Assembly: GCA_003210795.1 (NCBI GenBank)
Contig: QCUJ01000008.1
Span: 1 to 57,269, forward strand
DNA length: 57,269 nucleotides
Source of the DNA: Synechococcus sp. AG-679-B05
GTDB lineage: Bacteria; Cyanobacteriota; Cyanobacteriia; PCC-6307; Cyanobiaceae
Direction of reading: 5' to 3'
Shown piece after piece: positions 8,380-17,198 of this stretch (its first letter is position 1; every line of letters begins with the position of its first letter). The position numbers and the translations under genes are program-made. The notes under the pieces were generated by a model that did not search any database, was not told where the DNA came from, and saw only the letters and a list, made by a program, of their open reading frames with translations.

Positions 8380-9105
8380 ATGTCGCGTTCCTCGATGATC
8401 TGGGTGGTCGATGACGACCCCGAGCTGCGCCAGATGGTCGGCACTTATCTGATCGATCAGGGCTATTGCGTGCGCTGTCTCTGCGATGTGAAGCAGCTGG
8501 AGGCACGGCTTGAATTTCAAAGACCGGACCTGGTGGTTCTGGATCTGATGCTCCCCGGCGATGACGGGCTCACCGCCTTGCGACGCCTGCGAGACGCCGG
8601 CGACGATCTGCCGGTGGTGATGCTCACCGCACGAGGCGATGGAGTGGATCGAATCATTGGGCTCGAGCAGGGCGCCGACGACTATCTGGGCAAACCGTTT
8701 TTGCCGCGTGAATTGACCGCGCGGATCGAGGCGGTGCTGCGTCGTCGCAGCAGCATTCCTGCAGGGACGCCACTGGCCGATGGTGCGCAGGTGATTTTTG
8801 GAGACAACCAGCTCGACCTCGCCGCCCGAACCCTTGTTCGCAATGGCGCGACACAGGTGATCACCAGCGGCGAATTCAGCTTGCTGGCGGCCGTCGTGCA
8901 ACATCCGCACCGGCCCCTATCCCGTGAACGGCTGATTGAACTGGCGCGGGGCCCCGAAAGCGACACGGACAGCCGCAGCATGGATGTGCAGATATCCAGG
9001 GTGCGAAAGCTGATCGAGCAAGATCCAAGCCGCCCTCGTTACCTGCAGACGGTTTGGGGCTACGGCTATGTGTTTGTTCCAGATGGCGAAACTCGCAGTC
9101 GCTGA
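8380..9105 (+). CDS. OmpR-family DNA-binding response regulator
   Basis: A 241-residue regulator with an N-terminal receiver and a C-terminal winged helix. The receiver has the acidic triad DDD at 11-13, the phospho-acceptor Asp55 in VVLDLMLPG, Thr83 and Lys105 in GADDYLGKPF. The effector domain ends with the canonical TVWGYGYVFVPDG. It is not RpaA or RpaB by its general sequence and looks closest to OmpR. Its natural partner is probably the EnvZ-like kinase at 13.2-14.6 kb, now 4 kb away across an AT-rich island; the terminal residues after VPDG may have been replaced when the two were separated. Confidence 0.93.
   Translation: MSRSSMIWVVDDDPELRQMVGTYLIDQGYCVRCLCDVKQLEARLEFQRPDLVVLDLMLPGDDGLTALRRLRDAGDDLPVVMLTARGDGVDRIIGLEQGADDYLGKPFLPRELTARIEAVLRRRSSIPAGTPLADGAQVIFGDNQLDLAARTLVRNGATQVITSGEFSLLAAVVQHPHRPLSRERLIELARGPESDTDSRSMDVQISRVRKLIEQDPSRPRYLQTVWGYGYVFVPDGETRSR
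9067..9087 (+). repeat. Copy 1 of a 21-base imperfect direct repeat (end of response regulator gene)
   Basis: This stretch encodes YVFVPDG in the response regulator. It matches 13198-13218 at 18 of 21 positions in the same orientation, the mismatches being conservative at protein level (F/L, V/I, silent D). The two copies bracket the AT-rich island. Confidence 0.6.
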
Positions 9106-9220
9106 AAAAGAGGCAAGCTCCAAACATCTGGAACTCTGAATCTGGACTTGGATCAGGGCAACCTTGAGGACACGCAAAAAGGGGCTTTGAGCGCGAGGAT
9201 GGTCATAGACATCCGTAACC

Positions 9221-9517
9221 ATGGCACCCACAAACAGAGAGATTCTTGCCGCGTCAGCAGGCTGGGTAGCCGTCACCTTGAATGTGGTTCCAGGCTTAGG
9301 CGCCGGTTACCTCTACCAACGCCGCTGGAAGGCGTATTGGATTACGTCGGCTCTGGCCACAACCTGGTTTGTCCTTGGGGCGGTGCTTGGCCAAGGAGCA
9401 GAGGGTGCCGAGGAAATGCAAAACCAATTGGTTGGGCTCTGCGGTCTAGTGGCTCTGGCCTCTGGAACAGCCGTTGAAGCTGGGCTTGCGATAAAAAAAT
9501 CCCGCGAAAAGGGCTGA
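9221..9517 (+). CDS. Small membrane protein, unknown
   Basis: A 98-residue protein with three hydrophobic stretches: about 8-30 (AASAGWVAVTLNVVPGLGAG), 40-58 and 70-88, with a basic C-terminus ending KKSREKG. The motif VPGLGAGYLYQRRWKAYW resembles short cyanobacterial membrane proteins of unknown role. The composition is still like the core genome rather than the AT-rich island that follows. No neighbour suggests a function. Confidence 0.65.
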   Translation: MAPTNREILAASAGWVAVTLNVVPGLGAGYLYQRRWKAYWITSALATTWFVLGAVLGQGAEGAEEMQNQLVGLCGLVALASGTAVEAGLAIKKSREKG

Positions 9518-9769
9518 CAAACGTTTCATTCGCTTTGCTAAAAATTTGACCAAGGGAGGTGACGTGAGAACTCAACAATGCTGAGTCTGAGCTTCATGCC
9601 ACATCGGCAAAAGAAGTGAGGTTCACACACCCTCCGAATGGAGAAAGGCAGGAAGCGAACAAGTCGCTTTGCCATGCCATAGCAATCGCGATTGCGCTCT
9701 TTAACCAGCCATGTCCCTTCTCTAGCGGTCGCCGAAGCTCGCAAAAGATGAATGCAGGGATTGCATCAT

Positions 9770-9798
9770 TTGGCATCGCACCCTCCAGAGGGTATTGT
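9770..9798 (+). promoter_or_regulatory. Candidate sigma-70 promoter for the small hli gene
   Basis: TTGGCA at 9770-9775 and TATTGT at 9793-9798 are separated by exactly 17 bases, about 28 bases before the ATG at 9827. The hexamers are imperfect, so this is a prediction only. Confidence 0.35.
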
Positions 9799-9826
9799 TA
9801 ACTTATATGAAGTTGCTCATTGATCC

Positions 9827-9982
9827 ATGGATTCTTCCAACCCAAACGTCCAGCCTCCCTACAACAAAGATGACATGGCCGCAGGGGAGCTTTGGAATGG
9901 ACGACTTGCAATGATTGGCTTCGTCAGCGCAATCGCGACGGAACTGCTATTGGGTCAATCCATGCTGCCAAAAGTTTTCTGA
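9827..9982 (+). CDS. Short high-light-inducible (Hli) protein
   Basis: A 51-residue Hli protein. The core reads AGELWNGRLAMIGFVSAIATE: Glu, Asn and Arg in ELWNGRLAMIGF are the chlorophyll-binding positions of the single-helix Hli/SCP family, followed by a hydrophobic helix and a short tail ending KVF. The N-terminus is a short polar leader. It is the only recognisable family member in the AT-rich island; hli genes are often carried in genomic islands of marine cyanobacteria and by their phages. Confidence 0.88.
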   Translation: MDSSNPNVQPPYNKDDMAAGELWNGRLAMIGFVSAIATELLLGQSMLPKVF

Positions 9983-10921
9983 AACGCTTCAAGCCCGAAA
10001 CAACTAAAGGCCGCGCTCTCCAGAAAAAGAAATACTGTTGCGCCTAATCAACGTCAAATTCTGATTGCAAAAAAATCAGCAATGTGGGCCGCAATTGATC
10101 ATAATTACTGAAAAACTATAATAATTATGATAAATTGTTTTATGCATTACGATCGTATTTATGCTTTATAAATCTAGCAAATATATATTCGTTGCTAATT
10201 ATTTTGGTATAGTAATTTTTGCAATAGTTAAATTAAAATCGCACTCTAAACATATAGGCCTTGATGGCTTCGTTGCACGAAAATCAATCAATCATTTATT
10301 TTAATCCCAAGTAGTTAATTCTTTTCAAATCCAGTTTATAACAGCCAAAGGAATAAGATTTTAGTTGATTAACTTGGGTGGCGCCAAGATTTCTCTCACT
10401 CCACGGATTAGGCAAATGCTGGGCAAACCATTTTCATTGTCCCCACCAAGAAGGCTCTAAAACCCACCCTGCTGAAGTCAGCAGCCAATCCGAGCGGAAG
10501 CGCATGGCTTTAAATCAAACTATTTTAGTGTTCAATCATAGCAAAATTGTTGCGGCACATAACTAAATTACTGGTTAATTCCGAAAGCCAATCATCATTA
10601 AAACCAAAAAGCAGGTGTCGCCCTAGACGAGAAAGATAGGCATGCATGACGTATACATCGTGCTACAAGCAGCTAGAGATAGCTTAAGCATAATCGTGAT
10701 GAGTATAGATGACGGTTGCTAAAGGCACCTTCTAGACGATTTCGAAGGTTCTTAGACAATTCAGGCCTTGCACAATTTTTTTTTAAAAACCTATACATCC
10801 AAGATATAGCCTGTGAACATAGCAATCGCTACATCTATTATTATCTATAATTGATAGCACCTGATGAAGCACGATTATTCTCAATGAATAATCTCTTCCT
10901 GAATACAAATTCCGAGTTGCA
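9983..10921. other. AT-rich gene-free stretch
   Basis: About 940 bases, visibly richer in A and T than the flanking core, with scattered stops in all frames. The only open readings are below about 62 codons; one from a GTG at 10378 to 10566 has no recognisable pattern, and I do not call it. I see no tRNA, terminator or repeat here. It looks like non-coding island DNA. Confidence 0.5.
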
Positions 10922-11007
10922 ATGAACCAGCTGCAGCGACAACGACTGGTTGCACGGAAGTTGGACGCTTTGATTAAATTGATTGAGGGACGTTACCATT
11001 CCTCGTC

Positions 11008-11142
11008 TTAGTCAGCAATTGCATGTCTGACATGAGCCAATTCATGGACAATGGCTGCTTTATCAACCATTGAACCTGCTTCCAGCAGTTGTTGTTCTAA
11101 TTCCTCCAGGCGTTGAGACAAGAGCATTATTGTGTAATTCAT
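11008..11142 (-). CDS. Tiny helical protein, paralogue of the next island gene
   Basis: A 44-residue frame. It is one charged helix-forming chain with LEELEQQL, then VDKAAIVHELAHVRHAIAD at the end. It aligns by eye with the end of the protein at 11288-11449 (ELEHQL ... ADRVEIDHQLKCVEHAIAE), suggesting a small paralogous family. A second in-frame ATG lies six bases upstream (11148). No Shine-Dalgarno sequence is evident. The function is unknown. Confidence 0.5.
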   Translation of the reverse strand: MNYTIMLLSQRLEELEQQLLEAGSMVDKAAIVHELAHVRHAIAD

Positions 11143-11287
11143 AATCATAATTGTTATCACATCAGCTTGATGATTGTATACTCCCCATTAATACTTTCTG
11201 TTGACCAATCGAAGCTATCCAGCACTCCTGAATCTCAAAGCTCAACAAAGCAATCCCTAATTACATCTATCTTATTATTTGCTGTAT

Positions 11288-11449
11288 TCACTGGGCCGGC
11301 TCCAACTCAGCTATTGCGTGTTCAACACACTTCAGTTGATGATCTATCTCTACTCGGTCGGCTTGTGAATCACTTGTCATGAGCTGATGTTCAAGCTCTA
11401 GATGATGCTGGAAGAGATAACTTTGAATAAGGTCAGATACAAGTTCCAT
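11288..11449 (-). CDS. Small helical protein, unknown
   Basis: A 53-residue protein. I chose the ATG at 11449 because AGGAG lies seven bases upstream of it on the minus strand; the frame stays open 36 codons further up, but without a ribosome site. The chain is helical and charged (MELVSDLIQSYLFQHHLELE) and ends HQLKCVEHAIAELEPAQ, echoing the paralogue at 11008-11142. It has no membrane segment. It may act as a small binding partner, but nothing in the neighbourhood says of what. Confidence 0.6.
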   Translation of the reverse strand: MELVSDLIQSYLFQHHLELEHQLMTSDSQADRVEIDHQLKCVEHAIAELEPAQ

Positions 11450-11677
11450 ACGTTGACTCCTGAAATGGTTTGCAGAGCTATGGCTGAGGGGTAGAGGTGA
11501 CCGTTGTGGAAGTGGTCCTGCAATCAGTATCTGCTTCTCTTCAAATATCCACATCACTGGATGTAGCTAGTTGCTCGCTGGTTCCTCTAGTCCTATTGGG
11601 TAGGTGCAGTTGAACTAGTCCTCGATACGCGCACTTGGCTCGACCTCCACTAGCCGTGATTCATGGAATGCACCAGG

Positions 11678-11767
11678 TCATGACTCCGTCGTGTCATGGC
11701 TCCGATAACACTTCTTCAGCACGGGCTTAACGAACGATGGCTTGACAGTGCTACCTGAATAGCGCAT
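11678..11767 (-). CDS. Possible 29-residue peptide
   Basis: An open frame from an ATG at 11767 encodes MRYSGSTVKPSFVKPVLKKC and nine more residues. The basic, YRS-containing character resembles very short proteins annotated in marine cyanobacteria, but the length is too small to trust. I list it as a low-confidence candidate only. Confidence 0.2.
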   Translation of the reverse strand: MRYSGSTVKPSFVKPVLKKCYRSHDTTES

Positions 11768-11820
11768 ACCCACGAGCGAGCGAGACGACACATCTTCATG
11801 GTACTTCATGAAGTTATAAT

Positions 11821-12048
11821 ATGAGCACTTACGAGCAACTCGCAATGATCAAGTCAATTCCAAATAAGTCAGAACGAGGAGGAAACATTTTTGATTTTGT
11901 TGGAATGGCAAAGCAAGTAACAGTCAAAAGAGAGCAAGGCATGAATCAAGACGTCAGTTCCTTGGACTATATGAATAAAGTACCAAAATCAAAAAAGACA
12001 ACAAAAACAATCATGGAACTCCCGAGTGATCGGAATCAAAAATCGTAA
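11821..12048 (+). CDS. Small Lys-rich protein, unknown
   Basis: A 75-residue frame with an ATG just after the run TATAATATG, which could serve as a promoter element but is too close to be certain. The product (MSTYEQLAMIKSIPNKSERG at the start, KVPKSKKTTKTIMELPSD near the end) is hydrophilic and basic, without membrane segments or a known motif. Codon use is AT-rich like the surrounding island, unlike the flanking core genes, which suggests transfer. I do not recognise it. Confidence 0.45.
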   Translation: MSTYEQLAMIKSIPNKSERGGNIFDFVGMAKQVTVKREQGMNQDVSSLDYMNKVPKSKKTTKTIMELPSDRNQKS

Positions 12049-12466
12049 GTTACAAGATTGAATATCGTGCCGACTACCTCCTGCAGGCGTTCTGCATAGA
12101 ACCACCCTCCAATTCAACTTACATAGCAAAAATCAAAACTTGCAGCAGAACGATGGTTGACCGTCGCAAGTTCATAAATTCCACACAATCTAGCTTCATT
12201 ATTCATTGGGACTATCCAGCAAAAGCCACAAAAGTGGGGCGAATAGCAACGGACAACCAGATCAACCTAAATGACAACTCCTCTTCCAAGAATTATACAT
12301 AAGGCCCACAAAGCATTTTCTAACGATTGCCTATACTAGCCATTACGGATTATGTATAACCTCTTATTTGTCTTATTGCTTTCCTGCATGCATCAGCAGA
12401 GGACTCACGCATTAGTCTAATATCAGTTCCATTTCTTACGTTTTTTTGTGGCTCAATGACCCCTTC
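12049..12466. other. AT-rich gene-free stretch
   Basis: About 420 bases of island DNA with no open frame worth calling, no clear hairpin-plus-T terminator and no repeat I can see. Confidence 0.5.
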
Positions 12467-12721
12467 TCATGCCGAAGGTAGGGGCGTATTCATTGCCATT
12501 ACTGAATAGATCACTTCATATTGGGGGTTCTTCTCATCCGGCTCTTCGGCTCCAGCCAGCAGCTCAACCTTATCTGCTGGCATGAAATCAATGCCATCTG
12601 TTGTGACTACTGGCTGGCTCAATAATTCACTCCTCATTCTTATTGCCTCGCCCCTCAGCAAGGAATCCAAATCAGGCTCAAGCGGGGTAATGGCTACTCC
12701 ATATCGCTTGAGCTTCCCCAT
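12467..12721 (-). CDS. Conserved-looking small protein, unknown
   Basis: An 84-residue acidic protein beginning MGKLKRYGVAITPLEPDLD. It contains a central PVVTTDGIDFMPADKVELL segment and a C-terminal EPDEKNPQYEVIYSVMAMN. The even amino-acid composition and the G/C-rich third positions compared with the rest of the island suggest a real gene. There is no signal peptide or membrane span. It lies alone on the minus strand in the island, and I cannot assign a function. Confidence 0.5.
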   Translation of the reverse strand: MGKLKRYGVAITPLEPDLDSLLRGEAIRMRSELLSQPVVTTDGIDFMPADKVELLAGAEEPDEKNPQYEVIYSVMAMNTPLPSA

Positions 12722-12924
12722 GGTTGGTGGTGCCAGAAGAGTGGACTCATACCGACTTAACTGCCTGCTTCCTCAGCGTCAGCGACATATAGAACCGGGA
12801 ATACCTGGTAACACCGCCATTCATTCAGCTGGAGTAGTCCTGCTCTCCTTCGCCCAACTACACAACAATCATTGCATCGGCTTCAAAGCCTCTCGAAGCA
12901 ATGCAGGTCTTGAAAGTCGGTGCA

Positions 12925-13083
12925 TCAAATCGATTCAGGCATCAGCTCGGAGATGTTCGGCATAGGGTCCGGCTTGCCCTCAGCAATGGCGCGAGCACGG
13001 AGATAAAACCAGCTCTCCGTTGCGCCCTTGGCTTCCATGCTTTCAGCAATGGACGTCCAGTTGTCGATTTCAGCTTGATCCAT
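12925..13083 (-). CDS. Small helical protein, unknown
   Basis: A 52-residue protein from an ATG at 13083 (MDQAEIDNWTSIAESMEAKG, then ATESWFYLRARAIAEGKPDP). It looks like a compact two-helix protein. The frame is open another 60 codons upstream, but those residues lie opposite the remnant and the kinase start and look non-coding. Similar short proteins occur in marine Synechococcus, but I know no function. It sits at the right edge of the island. Confidence 0.5.
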   Translation of the reverse strand: MDQAEIDNWTSIAESMEAKGATESWFYLRARAIAEGKPDPMPNISELMPESI

Positions 13084-13197
13084 GGGAATAACGAATATCC
13101 CCCAATGCTGGAAATTAACTGATGTTTCCGCGGCTTTTTCGAGTCGTGATGACCGCCACCTGGATCCATATCGACAGTTGCGGATTTGAAAAGCGAA

Positions 13198-13218
13198 TAT
13201 GTGCTTATTCCAGACGGC
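13198..13218 (+). repeat. Copy 2 of the 21-base direct repeat (response-regulator remnant)
   Basis: This encodes YVLIPDG, the counterpart of YVFVPDG at 9067-9087. The same frame is open from about 13168 to a TGA at 13246-13248 and reads TVADLKSEYVLIPDG then ISRWPSDVA, the shape of an OmpR-family C-terminal tail. It overlaps the kinase start, as an original regulator-kinase junction would. Confidence 0.55.
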
Positions 13219-13226
13219 ATCTCTCG

Positions 13227-14555
13227 TTGGCCCTCCGACGTCGCCTGAAATCGAGCAGCGCATGGGGCGGATTGTTGGCCGGAAGTTGGCTGCTGGGGGT
13301 GCTGATGCTTCAGCTGCTTTTCGGGCAACGGCTGGAGCGTCTGCAAATCGAGCGCTTAGGCAGTGAATTGGCGCTCAACCTGCGACTGAGCGAACTGATC
13401 CTGGAGCGCTATCCACCCACACTGATCAGCGAGCTGACGGGATTGGACCTGCAGATCGCCGTGGTGCCCACAGGTCCCGAGCGGCCCGATCAAGCCACAC
13501 AACAACGTGCTGAGGCGCTTCGTATGGAGCTCTGCAGCCGAATGAACGTCTGCCCGAGAATCCTCCCCGCAGCCTCGAGAGACAACATCGATCGACCGAA
13601 GGTGTGGATCGAACTGGTCTCACCATTGGAGCCGGTTTGGCTTCGCAGCGAGCTACCGATGTTGCGGAGCTGGCCACCGGAACCCACGCTGCTGGCCCTT
13701 GCTCTCGTTGGGGCCATCGTGAGTACTGGCGGAATCTATCTGCTGCTGGAGGTGAAGCGTCCTTTGCAGGCCCTAGAGAAAGGCCTGTCCGACGTTGGCA
13801 ACACCACCGATCCCGAAAGGCTTCCCGCACAGGGAGCCCCAGAGGTTCAAAGCATCACGCGACGTTTCAACGCCATGCTCCAGCGCCTTGCCATTAATCA
13901 GCAAGAACGCTCCACAATGCTGGCCGGAATTGCCCACGACTTAAGGGCACCGATTACCCGTCTGAGATTCCGCCTGTCGCTCCAGCAACTCAAGGAGACT
14001 GAACGAGAGCAGTTCCATGGAGACCTTCAGGCCTTGGAGCGCATCACCGATCAGTTTCTGCTGTTTGCCGGAGAAGGGGATCGGGAACTCCCGGTGGAGT
14101 GCCCGATCGATCAATGGTTGGCAGAGACAGTCGCCGGCCAGCCAAGGGATCAATTGAGACTGGAGCTCACAGCGATGAAGGGAAAGATTCGCCCAGTGGC
14201 CCTCAGCCGAGCTCTGAGCAATTTGATCGACAATGCCCTCAGCTACGGCGATCCCCCAGTTGTCATTCGCTTGACGCACAACAACTCACGAGCCTTGATC
14301 GAAGTCTGGGATCAGGGGCAGGGAATTCCTGAAGAGCAGTGGCAACGGGCCTTGCAACCGTTTCAACGCATTGATGCGGCCCGTGGTCAGCAGGGGCACT
14401 GCGGTCTTGGCCTGGCGATCGTTAGTCAGGTGATGCATCAACACGATGGAACGGTCAGCTGCCGGCAGGGCGATGGTTACCCCGGTCGCTTTGCAGTGCT
14501 GCTGGACTTACCCATGGATGGGACTAAAAAGCCAGTCTTTCTTCAGAAAACCTAA
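13227..14555 (+). CDS. EnvZ-like sensor histidine kinase
   Basis: A membrane histidine kinase with a short N-terminus, TM1 (WGGLLAGSWLLGVLMLQLLF), a periplasmic loop of roughly 110 residues, TM2 (LLALALVGAIVSTGGIYLLL), a HAMP linker, the H-box AGIAHDLRAPITRLR with the phospho-accepting His, the N-box LSNLIDNALSYG, and the G boxes DQGQGIPEE and GHCGLGLAIV. The frame is open upstream to an ATG at 13122, but codons before 13227 overlap a decayed regulator tail and look non-native, so I prefer the TTG at 13227; the ATG at 13149 is an alternative. The partner is inferred to be the OmpR-type regulator at 8380-9105. Confidence 0.88.
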   Translation: MALRRRLKSSSAWGGLLAGSWLLGVLMLQLLFGQRLERLQIERLGSELALNLRLSELILERYPPTLISELTGLDLQIAVVPTGPERPDQATQQRAEALRMELCSRMNVCPRILPAASRDNIDRPKVWIELVSPLEPVWLRSELPMLRSWPPEPTLLALALVGAIVSTGGIYLLLEVKRPLQALEKGLSDVGNTTDPERLPAQGAPEVQSITRRFNAMLQRLAINQQERSTMLAGIAHDLRAPITRLRFRLSLQQLKETEREQFHGDLQALERITDQFLLFAGEGDRELPVECPIDQWLAETVAGQPRDQLRLELTAMKGKIRPVALSRALSNLIDNALSYGDPPVVIRLTHNNSRALIEVWDQGQGIPEEQWQRALQPFQRIDAARGQQGHCGLGLAIVSQVMHQHDGTVSCRQGDGYPGRFAVLLDLPMDGTKKPVFLQKT

Positions 14556-15737: not shown

Positions 15738-17198
15738 TCAGCTTGGATGGAGAGAAACCAAAACATAGACAGCAACAGGCTCAGGCCATCCCTTAACCGC
15801 GTGTCTCCCCAAGTCTTCAACGACAACAACATCGGCAATGAGATCCAGAACCTCTCCACTCATCGAAATTGGGTATTCAGGAAACTTACGCGTTAAAGAT
15901 TCCAATCGACTGGCCAGATTCACAGAAGCACCAATCACGGTGTACTCCAGTCGATCTTTGGAACCGAGATTACCGGCCATCACATCTCCGCAGTGAATGC
16001 CAATACCGTGACGAAGAGGTTCCAAACCTTCCTTGTCCAAAATGCTGTTGAGTTGATCAAGATTCGATTGCATTGTGAGAGCAGCCCGCACAGCCGCCAA
16101 TGCCTCTTCGCGATCGCCCCGATGGATAGGAACGCCAAATTCGGCCATCAGCGCGTCGCCAATGAATTTGTCCAACAGCCCCTGCTCGGCCAACACCGGG
16201 GCGGCGATAGCCTCGAAGTAACGATTTAGCAAAGCAAACAGATCCTCAGCATCCATGACATTGCTGCGGGCTGTGAACCCAACCAGATCGGTAAACAACA
16301 CAACACAGCGCTCGCGCCGACCGCCAAGACGCGTCCAACTTTCGGTGCTTGTACGCAACATGTCGCGCATCAGATTCGGCGAAACACGACGCGATAGAAC
16401 GGAATGAAGAAATCTCCGTTGCGCACTTTCCTGCTGGAACTGATCAGCGGTTCGAAGAGTTCCAGCAAAAACAGGCATCAGTATCAAGGCAGCTCCTGGC
16501 AACCAAAGGCCAAACCACCAGGCGGCAACCGTCGATCCACACGCCAGAACAGTCAGTGCTGCTGAAGTCGTTGCCGTTCCAAGCGCCGTCGCGGGCAAAG
16601 AAATTCGCCAGTGACACAACAACATCCAGCCAGTTGTCACAGCCACCAATGGCACGAAATTAAGCCCACGAAATCCGCGACCGCTTTGAAGTCCGGCGAT
16701 GTCCGAAAGCAGAACCTCAGACCCACTCTGCTGACCGAATGGAGTCTCAAGCTGATCCCCGAGGGAAGGAGCCGTTGAACCAATGATGACAATTTTGTCC
16801 TGCCAGAAGTCTTCCGATTGCATGCCAAGAGCCCAGGCGGGAATCACGGGAATCTGTTCACTTGGCCCAAGGAAATCGATCCCGTCATCAACGGATGCAG
16901 TTGTCTTATCAGCCGCCAAATGAGCCATTGGGGGCGAGTGGGGTTGAGGAAACGGAGCAAGCATTTCCTGAAGACGCACCATGCCGGGAACGGCCTGCAC
17001 AATCCCAAAGGCATCGATGGAGAAAGCCGACAGGCCAACTTGAAAACGCGCGTCCCATGGACGTCGCAGCTGGACCTGCTCAAAGCCCTCCCATTGCTGA
17101 CGAACCAAAGAAGCACTGAGCAGGACCCTGTCCTTCCATGGCTCCAGTGCGTCATAAAAAGGCTGATCATCATCAGCGTTGGCGCTCAAATCAGGCAA
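15738..17198 (-). CDS. CHASE2 adenylate cyclase, N-terminus disrupted
   Basis: The 486-residue frame holds the second half of an extracytoplasmic CHASE2 sensor (WKDRVLLSASLV, IVIIGSTAPSLGDQ), two or three membrane spans at about 190-250, and a class III cyclase domain. The cyclase has both metal-binding aspartates (LFTDLVGFT and FIGDALMAEF), Lys in LLDKFIGD and Thr in EYTVIG, which favour ATP over GTP as substrate, and the transition-state residues in SVNLASR. The apparent start is a TTG directly after a stop, in mid-domain; upstream DNA carries the missing CHASE2 start in two other frames. It is probably a pseudogene or a sequencing error, although the catalytic half is intact. Confidence 0.8.
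   Translation of the reverse strand: MPDLSANADDDQPFYDALEPWKDRVLLSASLVRQQWEGFEQVQLRRPWDARFQVGLSAFSIDAFGIVQAVPGMVRLQEMLAPFPQPHSPPMAHLAADKTTASVDDGIDFLGPSEQIPVIPAWALGMQSEDFWQDKIVIIGSTAPSLGDQLETPFGQQSGSEVLLSDIAGLQSGRGFRGLNFVPLVAVTTGWMLLCHWRISLPATALGTATTSAALTVLACGSTVAAWWFGLWLPGAALILMPVFAGTLRTADQFQQESAQRRFLHSVLSRRVSPNLMRDMLRTSTESWTRLGGRRERCVVLFTDLVGFTARSNVMDAEDLFALLNRYFEAIAAPVLAEQGLLDKFIGDALMAEFGVPIHRGDREEALAAVRAALTMQSNLDQLNSILDKEGLEPLRHGIGIHCGDVMAGNLGSKDRLEYTVIGASVNLASRLESLTRKFPEYPISMSGEVLDLIADVVVVEDLGRHAVKGWPEPVAVYVLVSLHPS

Follow-up and report, generated by a model that had tools for sequence, protein, structure and literature searches.

The 3′ end of an ompR-like regulator gene in Cyanobiaceae as a candidate recurrent docking site for small genomic islands

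Integrases exist that target the 3′ end of protein-coding genes and restore the coding end of the gene they enter, and we know of no ompR-like regulator among their targets. Tycheposons of marine picocyanobacteria insert at tRNA genes and bring their own integrase, and integron gene cassettes represent single-gene cargo that enters one site. Here, we describe a locus of Synechococcus sp. AG-679-B05, lying within a 57,269-nucleotide stretch of contig QCUJ01000008.1 (hereafter the window, meaning the whole stretch of DNA analysed), where 4.1 kb of inserted DNA separates an OmpR-type response regulator gene from an EnvZ-like histidine kinase gene and where the 3′ end of the regulator appears to be a site of recurrent integration. 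As with the 3′-end-targeting integrases, the native end is displaced and the coding end appears to be re-supplied by the element; the difference is that the enzyme was not found here. The locus resembles integrons in its single-gene cargo, its one site and an enzyme possibly acting from elsewhere, but 12 inserts lacked internal copies of the core at ≤3 mismatches apart from their two edges, as an integron-like array would hold, in searches not aimed at attC sites or integron integrases as such.

In the excerpted account of PMC10803314, the PICMI satellites occupy the fis gene of Vibrionaceae as small elements with 17 bp direct repeats. The present locus is alike in that a conserved regulator gene has a small element at its end, flanked by short direct repeats; it differs in that PICMIs, as that excerpt describes them, encode an integrase, AlpA and a primase (PMC10803314) and in that the target here is an ompR-like regulator. 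Only the Resolvase-domain proteins of two genomes, G204 and G171 (genomes and genera are given by our own handles), touch the PICMI families among 27 proteins scanned from 11 inserts, a set that covers part of their open reading frames (ORFs). Tycheposons are named in the same excerpt (PMC10803314). They share with the present inserts the form of a mobile island in the chromosome of a marine bacterium, loaded with accessory genes; here, by contrast, a protein gene is targeted and the inserts are without a tyrosine integrase. Among the listed papers, no title or beginning of an abstract described an element that sits at the 3′ end of an ompR-like gene, although this argues only weakly that none has been described.

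Four features were observed at this locus and its counterparts in other genomes: an empty site in relatives, a duplicated regulator end, a changed regulator tail and repeated use of the same site. In the window, the regulator (positions 8380 to 9105, plus strand) and the kinase (13227 to 14555, plus strand) lie on the same strand, split by a spacer of 4124 bp. An original prediction, made from the letters of the window, had placed these two genes, a repeat of 18 of 21 bases between 9067–9087 and 13198–13218, an in-frame TGA at 13246–13248 and a kinase frame startable at TTG 13227, all of them correctly, and had read the arrangement as an integration in which the incoming DNA re-supplied the regulator end. 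This reading now appears largely right, the direction of events included, in view of the changed tail and of the junction in the closest relative, G002, whose regulator and kinase are 93% and 85% identical in protein to those of the window.

With the kinase start of G002 taken at the projected TTG, its two genes share 4 bases; G002 also has the same flanking genes as the window, and PPK2 lies 3′ of the kinase in both genomes. The adjacent or overlapping pair that the prediction had expected in relatives was thus found, and the G002 junction holds the very sequence kept beside the window's kinase: it matches the kinase side through the regulator tail, the TTG and the codons that follow. On the regulator side the window diverges from G002 directly after GGC, and on the kinase side it diverges upstream of TATGT. 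Because the G002 junction corresponds to the kinase-side copy, positions 13198–13230 (plus strand; attR-like) are what remains of the original end of the regulator, and the present end, GETRSR, came with the insert. The regulator accordingly consists of a native body, a junction core at 9067–9087 (plus strand; attL-like; one of two pattern matches in the window, with 0 mismatches) and re-supplied last codons at 9088–9105 (plus strand), with a glutamate (E) after DG, unlike uninterrupted congeners. The inserted DNA proper (9106–13197) is absent from G002 at this site. The prediction erred in the native tail, given as ISRWPSDVA: G002 ends in SSR-stop, and the kinase-side copy of the window has TGG at that stop, so that a mutated native stop accounts for the longer frame read through to 13248. 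The residues encoded at 13122–13226 do not appear to form a true kinase N-terminus; the first 18 of these 35 are unaligned in the listed homologues, and the few that reach residue 19 or 20 (G007, G002, G024) include G002 because the kinase frame there runs through the old regulator end.

Short direct repeats resembling attachment sites stand at both ends of the insert, at 9067–9087 and 13198–13218. The core pattern TAYGTNTTYGTNCCNGAYGG occurs at ≤2 mismatches at exactly two places in the 57,269 bases, 9067 and 13198 (0.05 expected), a count reached in 0 of 100 shuffles of the window, and 13198–13217 is the sole second copy of the regulator 3′-end motif. The remnant aligned to the G002 junction with a score reached by 1 of 300 shuffles. 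Support was weaker when the regulator end was aligned locally to the 400 bp before the kinase (score 15; maximum 15.5 in 200 shuffles), and a general repeat search of the window did not list the pair 9067/13198; the comparison with G002 appears to support the duplication better than the plain alignment within the window. Clean empty sites were found in G002, G347 and other close relatives. The clearest pair is G309 and G347, with 95% DNA identity between their regulator bodies: on the regulator side G309 diverges right after GGC and has a different tail, and beside its kinase the native tail survives, with 31 of 35 bases matching G347.

A search of 400 genomes drawn from the family yielded the kinase in 178 at an E-value of 1e-60 or lower, and the regulator likewise in 178 at 1e-85 or lower. 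Pairs were formed from the 136 genomes among the matches listed for both genes, leaving out those listed for one gene alone and excluding second copies in G085 and G257. The spacer had a median of 11 bp and exceeded 300 bp in 10 pairs: G309 (968), G171 (1493), G343 (1519), G204 (1525), G192 (1596), G314 (1673), G334 (3623), the window (4124), G023 (7357) and G020 (7838). Gaps of related loci thus vary in size and cargo, and relatives sharing the same 4 kb gap, which would have spoken against the original prediction, were not what was found. Outside the count of 10 because its regulator is broken by a frameshift, G027 carries a 5.8 kb insert; its pair is decaying after the split. The kinase frame of G027 has a stop near its start. 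G004 has the tail type of G027 and similar following sequence, with no kinase in the 250 bases that follow before its contig ends, and both genomes look inserted as well. G124, with a spacer of about 280 bp, was treated as inserted. In G109, where the kinase was listed without a regulator row, the regulator proved to be adjacent and frame-split.

The remnant of the native end was sought at 12 inserted loci by comparing the 120 bases before the kinase with the regulator coding end of uninterrupted relatives, in 300 shuffles. The relatives were hand-picked (from the same genus for the first nine inserts, and G087, of another genus, for the three inserts of genus g47), and the first two of up to three were run per insert. 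Ten of the 12 loci yielded a remnant whose score, for one relative or more, was reached by ≤4 of 300 shuffles. The match starts at positions 67–76 of the regulator end (TAYGT being 72) in 9 of the 10 and reaches the regulator stop in 7; in the window's genome (G000) the ungapped core begins at TATGT, and a weak gapped stretch extends the alignment to 19.

The regulator tail changes with the insert. All 4 inserted genomes of the window's genus have E directly after DG and none of the 18 uninterrupted ones does (16 have T, 1 has S and 1 has Q), and G004 would be the fifth inserted genome of this genus with E at that place. In genus g57, where 29 of 31 genomes have the kinase, all five inserted genomes carry E plus one or two further codons, and the 24 uninterrupted ones carry Q (16), T (6) or E (2). 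The residue also occurs in genomes without an insert of more than 300 bp, namely G319, G355, three genomes of g47 (G079, G150, G189) and three of genus g52; E alone is therefore no proof of a replaced tail. The DNA consensus GGYGARCCYCG, present in 8 of 12 inserted tails versus 1 of 50 uninterrupted, separates the two classes better, but it misses the window, which together with the three g47 inserts makes up the inserted tails that lack it.

Midpoint-rooted trees (no support values displayed), one of the regulator body and one combining regulator and kinase, place the inserted genomes at dispersed positions in three genera. Several stand beside uninterrupted ones (the window with G002, G309 with G347, G192 with G258, G314 near G329, and G334 with G129 and G266), and others form separate inserted groups (G020/G023, G004/G027 and the g47 trio). 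Cargo differs between inserts: an Hli-type protein and small ORFs in the window; DoxX, flavodoxin, 2Fe-2S ferredoxin and PsaL in G020 and G023; DoxX in G027; a TauE-type exporter in G343; an AraC-type regulator in G334; in G192 and G314, frames of 358 and 367 aa that resemble each other and match no Pfam family; and, in G204 and G171 of g47, a small serine recombinase with a Resolvase domain. The PsaL gene of the G020 and G023 inserts is a second, divergent copy, a higher-scoring PsaL being present elsewhere in both genomes. The same site thus appears to have been used repeatedly in three genera, which adds to what had been predicted from the window and suggests that small genomic islands dock here recurrently.

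A displaced native end, a supplied replacement, one crossover zone and clean empty sites together make up the pattern of site-specific integration into a gene 3′ end. The best reading, to which we assign a probability of about 70% on the sequence comparisons given here, is that recurrent integration takes place in the regulator 3′ end with the coding end re-supplied. The attachment site would be the end of the regulator from roughly the YVFVPDG codons to the stop, recurrently used in Cyanobiaceae, and the incoming element would recombine inside or just after TAYGTNTTYGTNCCNGAYGG. By carrying its own version of the last codons, the element would leave the regulator complete with a new tail, the displaced native tail would remain as decaying scrap before the kinase, and the formerly overlapping regulator-kinase operon would be split by the cargo, after which the kinase may be expressed separately. 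The crossover zone encodes the conserved regulator end GYGYVFVPDG, and the residues that follow vary among relatives; such a site would be both conserved and tolerant. The reaction would be carried out by a recombinase of the tyrosine type that has since been lost or acts from another locus.

Several observations weigh against recurrent site-specific integration. The tail of the window (GGCGAAACTCG) does not fit GGYGARCCYCG, and the tail counts are not phylogenetically independent. G027 gave no remnant (270 and 266 of 300 shuffles reached its scores), and G204, weak on its own, failed the test as well (145 of 300 against G087). Two pairings start elsewhere in the regulator end, G334/G129 at 65 and G343/G319 at 91. 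Several of the remnants have decayed and span few bases, and the scores vary with the relative chosen, as in the poor pairings G192/G319, G020/G018 and G343/G319 (157, 23 and 5 of 300 shuffles). With respect to the enzyme, the window's genome has 8 matches to Phage_integrase (PF00589), 7 of them above cutoff and none on this contig, and the 31 matches in the 12 other inserted genomes all lie outside the inserts. An integrase within the element, the mark of an integrative element or phage satellite, was in this sense absent for the tyrosine type as judged by PF00589, and the only recombinase in any insert is the small serine resolvase type of G204 and G171. A copy of the motif outside the regulator that could serve as attP was not found at ≤1 mismatch in 13 genomes, and two longer patterns had 0 matches in viral contigs.

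The earlier statement that no integrase was seen holds for the whole contig as far as Phage_integrase matches are concerned, and since no tyrosine-integrase match falls in any insert, we infer the enzyme. All 13 inserted genomes have at least one Phage_integrase match elsewhere, so that action in trans is possible. The 8 tyrosine-recombinase loci of the window's genome (1.7–3.5 kb fetched) lacked the core-plus-tail pattern at ≤5 mismatches, and a scan in Pfam, the only one applied to large serine integrases, revealed none among the 27 insert proteins. The 20-base core matched 36 stretches in viral contigs, which were set aside because their number is near a rough chance estimate of about 40. 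The regulator-end stretch of G309 matched 12 phage records at E-values of 3 or worse, none from cyanobacterial phages. A more tentative and less probable reading sees the inserts as small integrase-less cassettes, mobilised in trans by a recombinase whose gene lies elsewhere. Every cassette would bring a replacement C-terminus, and its insertion and excision would toggle the regulator tail and the coupling of the regulator to the kinase.

The chief rival, which we regard as unlikely, is that one or a few old insertions made a split allele that has since spread between strains by homologous recombination, with turnover of cargo and with no site-specific enzyme at work today. Such a history would fit the new tail GEPRTRH, common to G192, G314 and G343, yet joined in G343 to other cargo, as it would fit the recurrence of the GGYGARCCYCG tail in two genera and the absence of a tyrosine integrase from every insert. 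It is harder to square with the scrap before the kinase, whose sequence agrees with the native tail found in local relatives (G002 in the case of G000, G347 in that of G309), and with regulator and kinase bodies that group with their own close relatives. As scrap and bodies are both local, crossovers of an old allele would have to fall within the last few dozen bases.

Far less probable is a transposon with a preferred target that duplicates a short stretch of it. Short direct copies do stand on both sides of the insert, but no inverted repeats above shuffles were found at the ends of the 10 inserts tested, no transposase family occurs among the 27 insert proteins in Pfam, and the new and old tails are unlike beyond the core, contrary to what duplication of a target would yield. 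We give still less weight to a tandem duplication of the regulator whose second copy decayed to scrap: the regulator end is present twice in the same orientation, but the best-supported match starts near the YVFVPDG codons in 9 of 10 remnant loci (the longer one in G000 being weak and gapped), cargo DNA lies in between, and close relatives have a single copy. Chance similarity or misassembly scarcely deserves credence, for although the window's genome is a draft of 109 contigs and 77% completeness, the motif count of 2 exceeds the expected 0.05 and the split pair, new tail and scrap recur in the single-contig genomes G020, G023, G309 and G192.

If integration at the regulator end is indeed recurrent, this cyanobacterial group, a major one ecologically, would have an insertion hotspot within a protein-coding gene, outside the tRNA sites at which such islands are known to insert. 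The loci also form a natural series of intact and split regulator-kinase operons, with and without a changed tail, in which the effect of operon coupling can be tested. With a second PsaL, a flavodoxin and a ferredoxin in the cargo of G020 and G023, the site may moreover help to spread photosynthesis-related genes.

The window's own cargo consists of small accessory genes. A 98-aa protein is encoded at 9221–9517 (plus strand); it has no Pfam family above cutoff, and DNA 71–83% identical to it occurs at other loci in 14 congeners. The frame at 9827–9982 (plus strand) encodes a high-light-inducible (Hli) type protein (Pfam Chloroa_b-bind at 26.9 bits, cutoff 22.3; PHROG high light inducible protein). 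A 75-aa ORF follows at 11821–12048 (plus strand), with no family above cutoff and an overlapping segment, 79% identical, elsewhere in G015. On the minus strand, 12925–13092, the conserved part of an ORF at 12925–13263, belongs to a multi-copy Synechococcus family of about 55 residues with matches in 27 of the 59 genomes searched, up to 7 per genome, in marine Synechococcus. Elsewhere in the genus, segments of the insert are thus met as single genes; phage records had no match to the window's insert. GC content is 0.57–0.63 in the regulator and kinase and 0.36–0.47 over about 9.75–12.5 kb, so that the description of the insert as an AT-rich island suits its middle but not its first 600 bp and last 700 bp (0.52–0.55). 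Promoter-like sites (8; 6.7 expected) and terminator-like sites (6; 3.9 expected) between 8900 and 13400 were uninformative.

As to the pair itself, the regulator has Response_reg and Trans_reg_C domains above their Pfam cutoffs and OmpR as its best NCBIfam model, at 317.6 bits against a curated cutoff of 331. The kinase, which probably starts at TTG 13227 as projected in G002, has HATPase_c above cutoff, HAMP and HisKA under theirs, and EnvZ as its best NCBIfam model (184.7 bits, cutoff 415); by these scores it is probably a distant EnvZ relative. Since both fall below curated cutoffs, the names OmpR and EnvZ reflect the nearest relative, not a passed cutoff. Beyond cyanobacteria, the next relatives of the regulator among the best 80 loci are proteobacterial (51–63% identity), and the comparison suggests that the pair may have come from proteobacteria. 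Neither gene was found, at the limits used, in 11 of the 34 genomes of the window's genus, some of them incomplete. In 7 of these congeners, 5.1 kb past the upstream neighbour was inspected: the DUF gene is present in 6 of the 7 and PPK2 in 4, one of which, G001, shows only its end, and a 37-residue kinase scrap is kept in G006. With both genes missing and the neighbours mostly kept, the regulator-kinase pair looks dispensable in this genus. Farther downstream in the window, PPK2 and the gene after it are separated by a 486-aa frame (15738–17198, minus strand) that resembles a cyclase on visual inspection alone. A gap of only about 230 bp parts the two genes in G002, and the absence of the frame between them there would mark a second lineage-specific insertion or loss.

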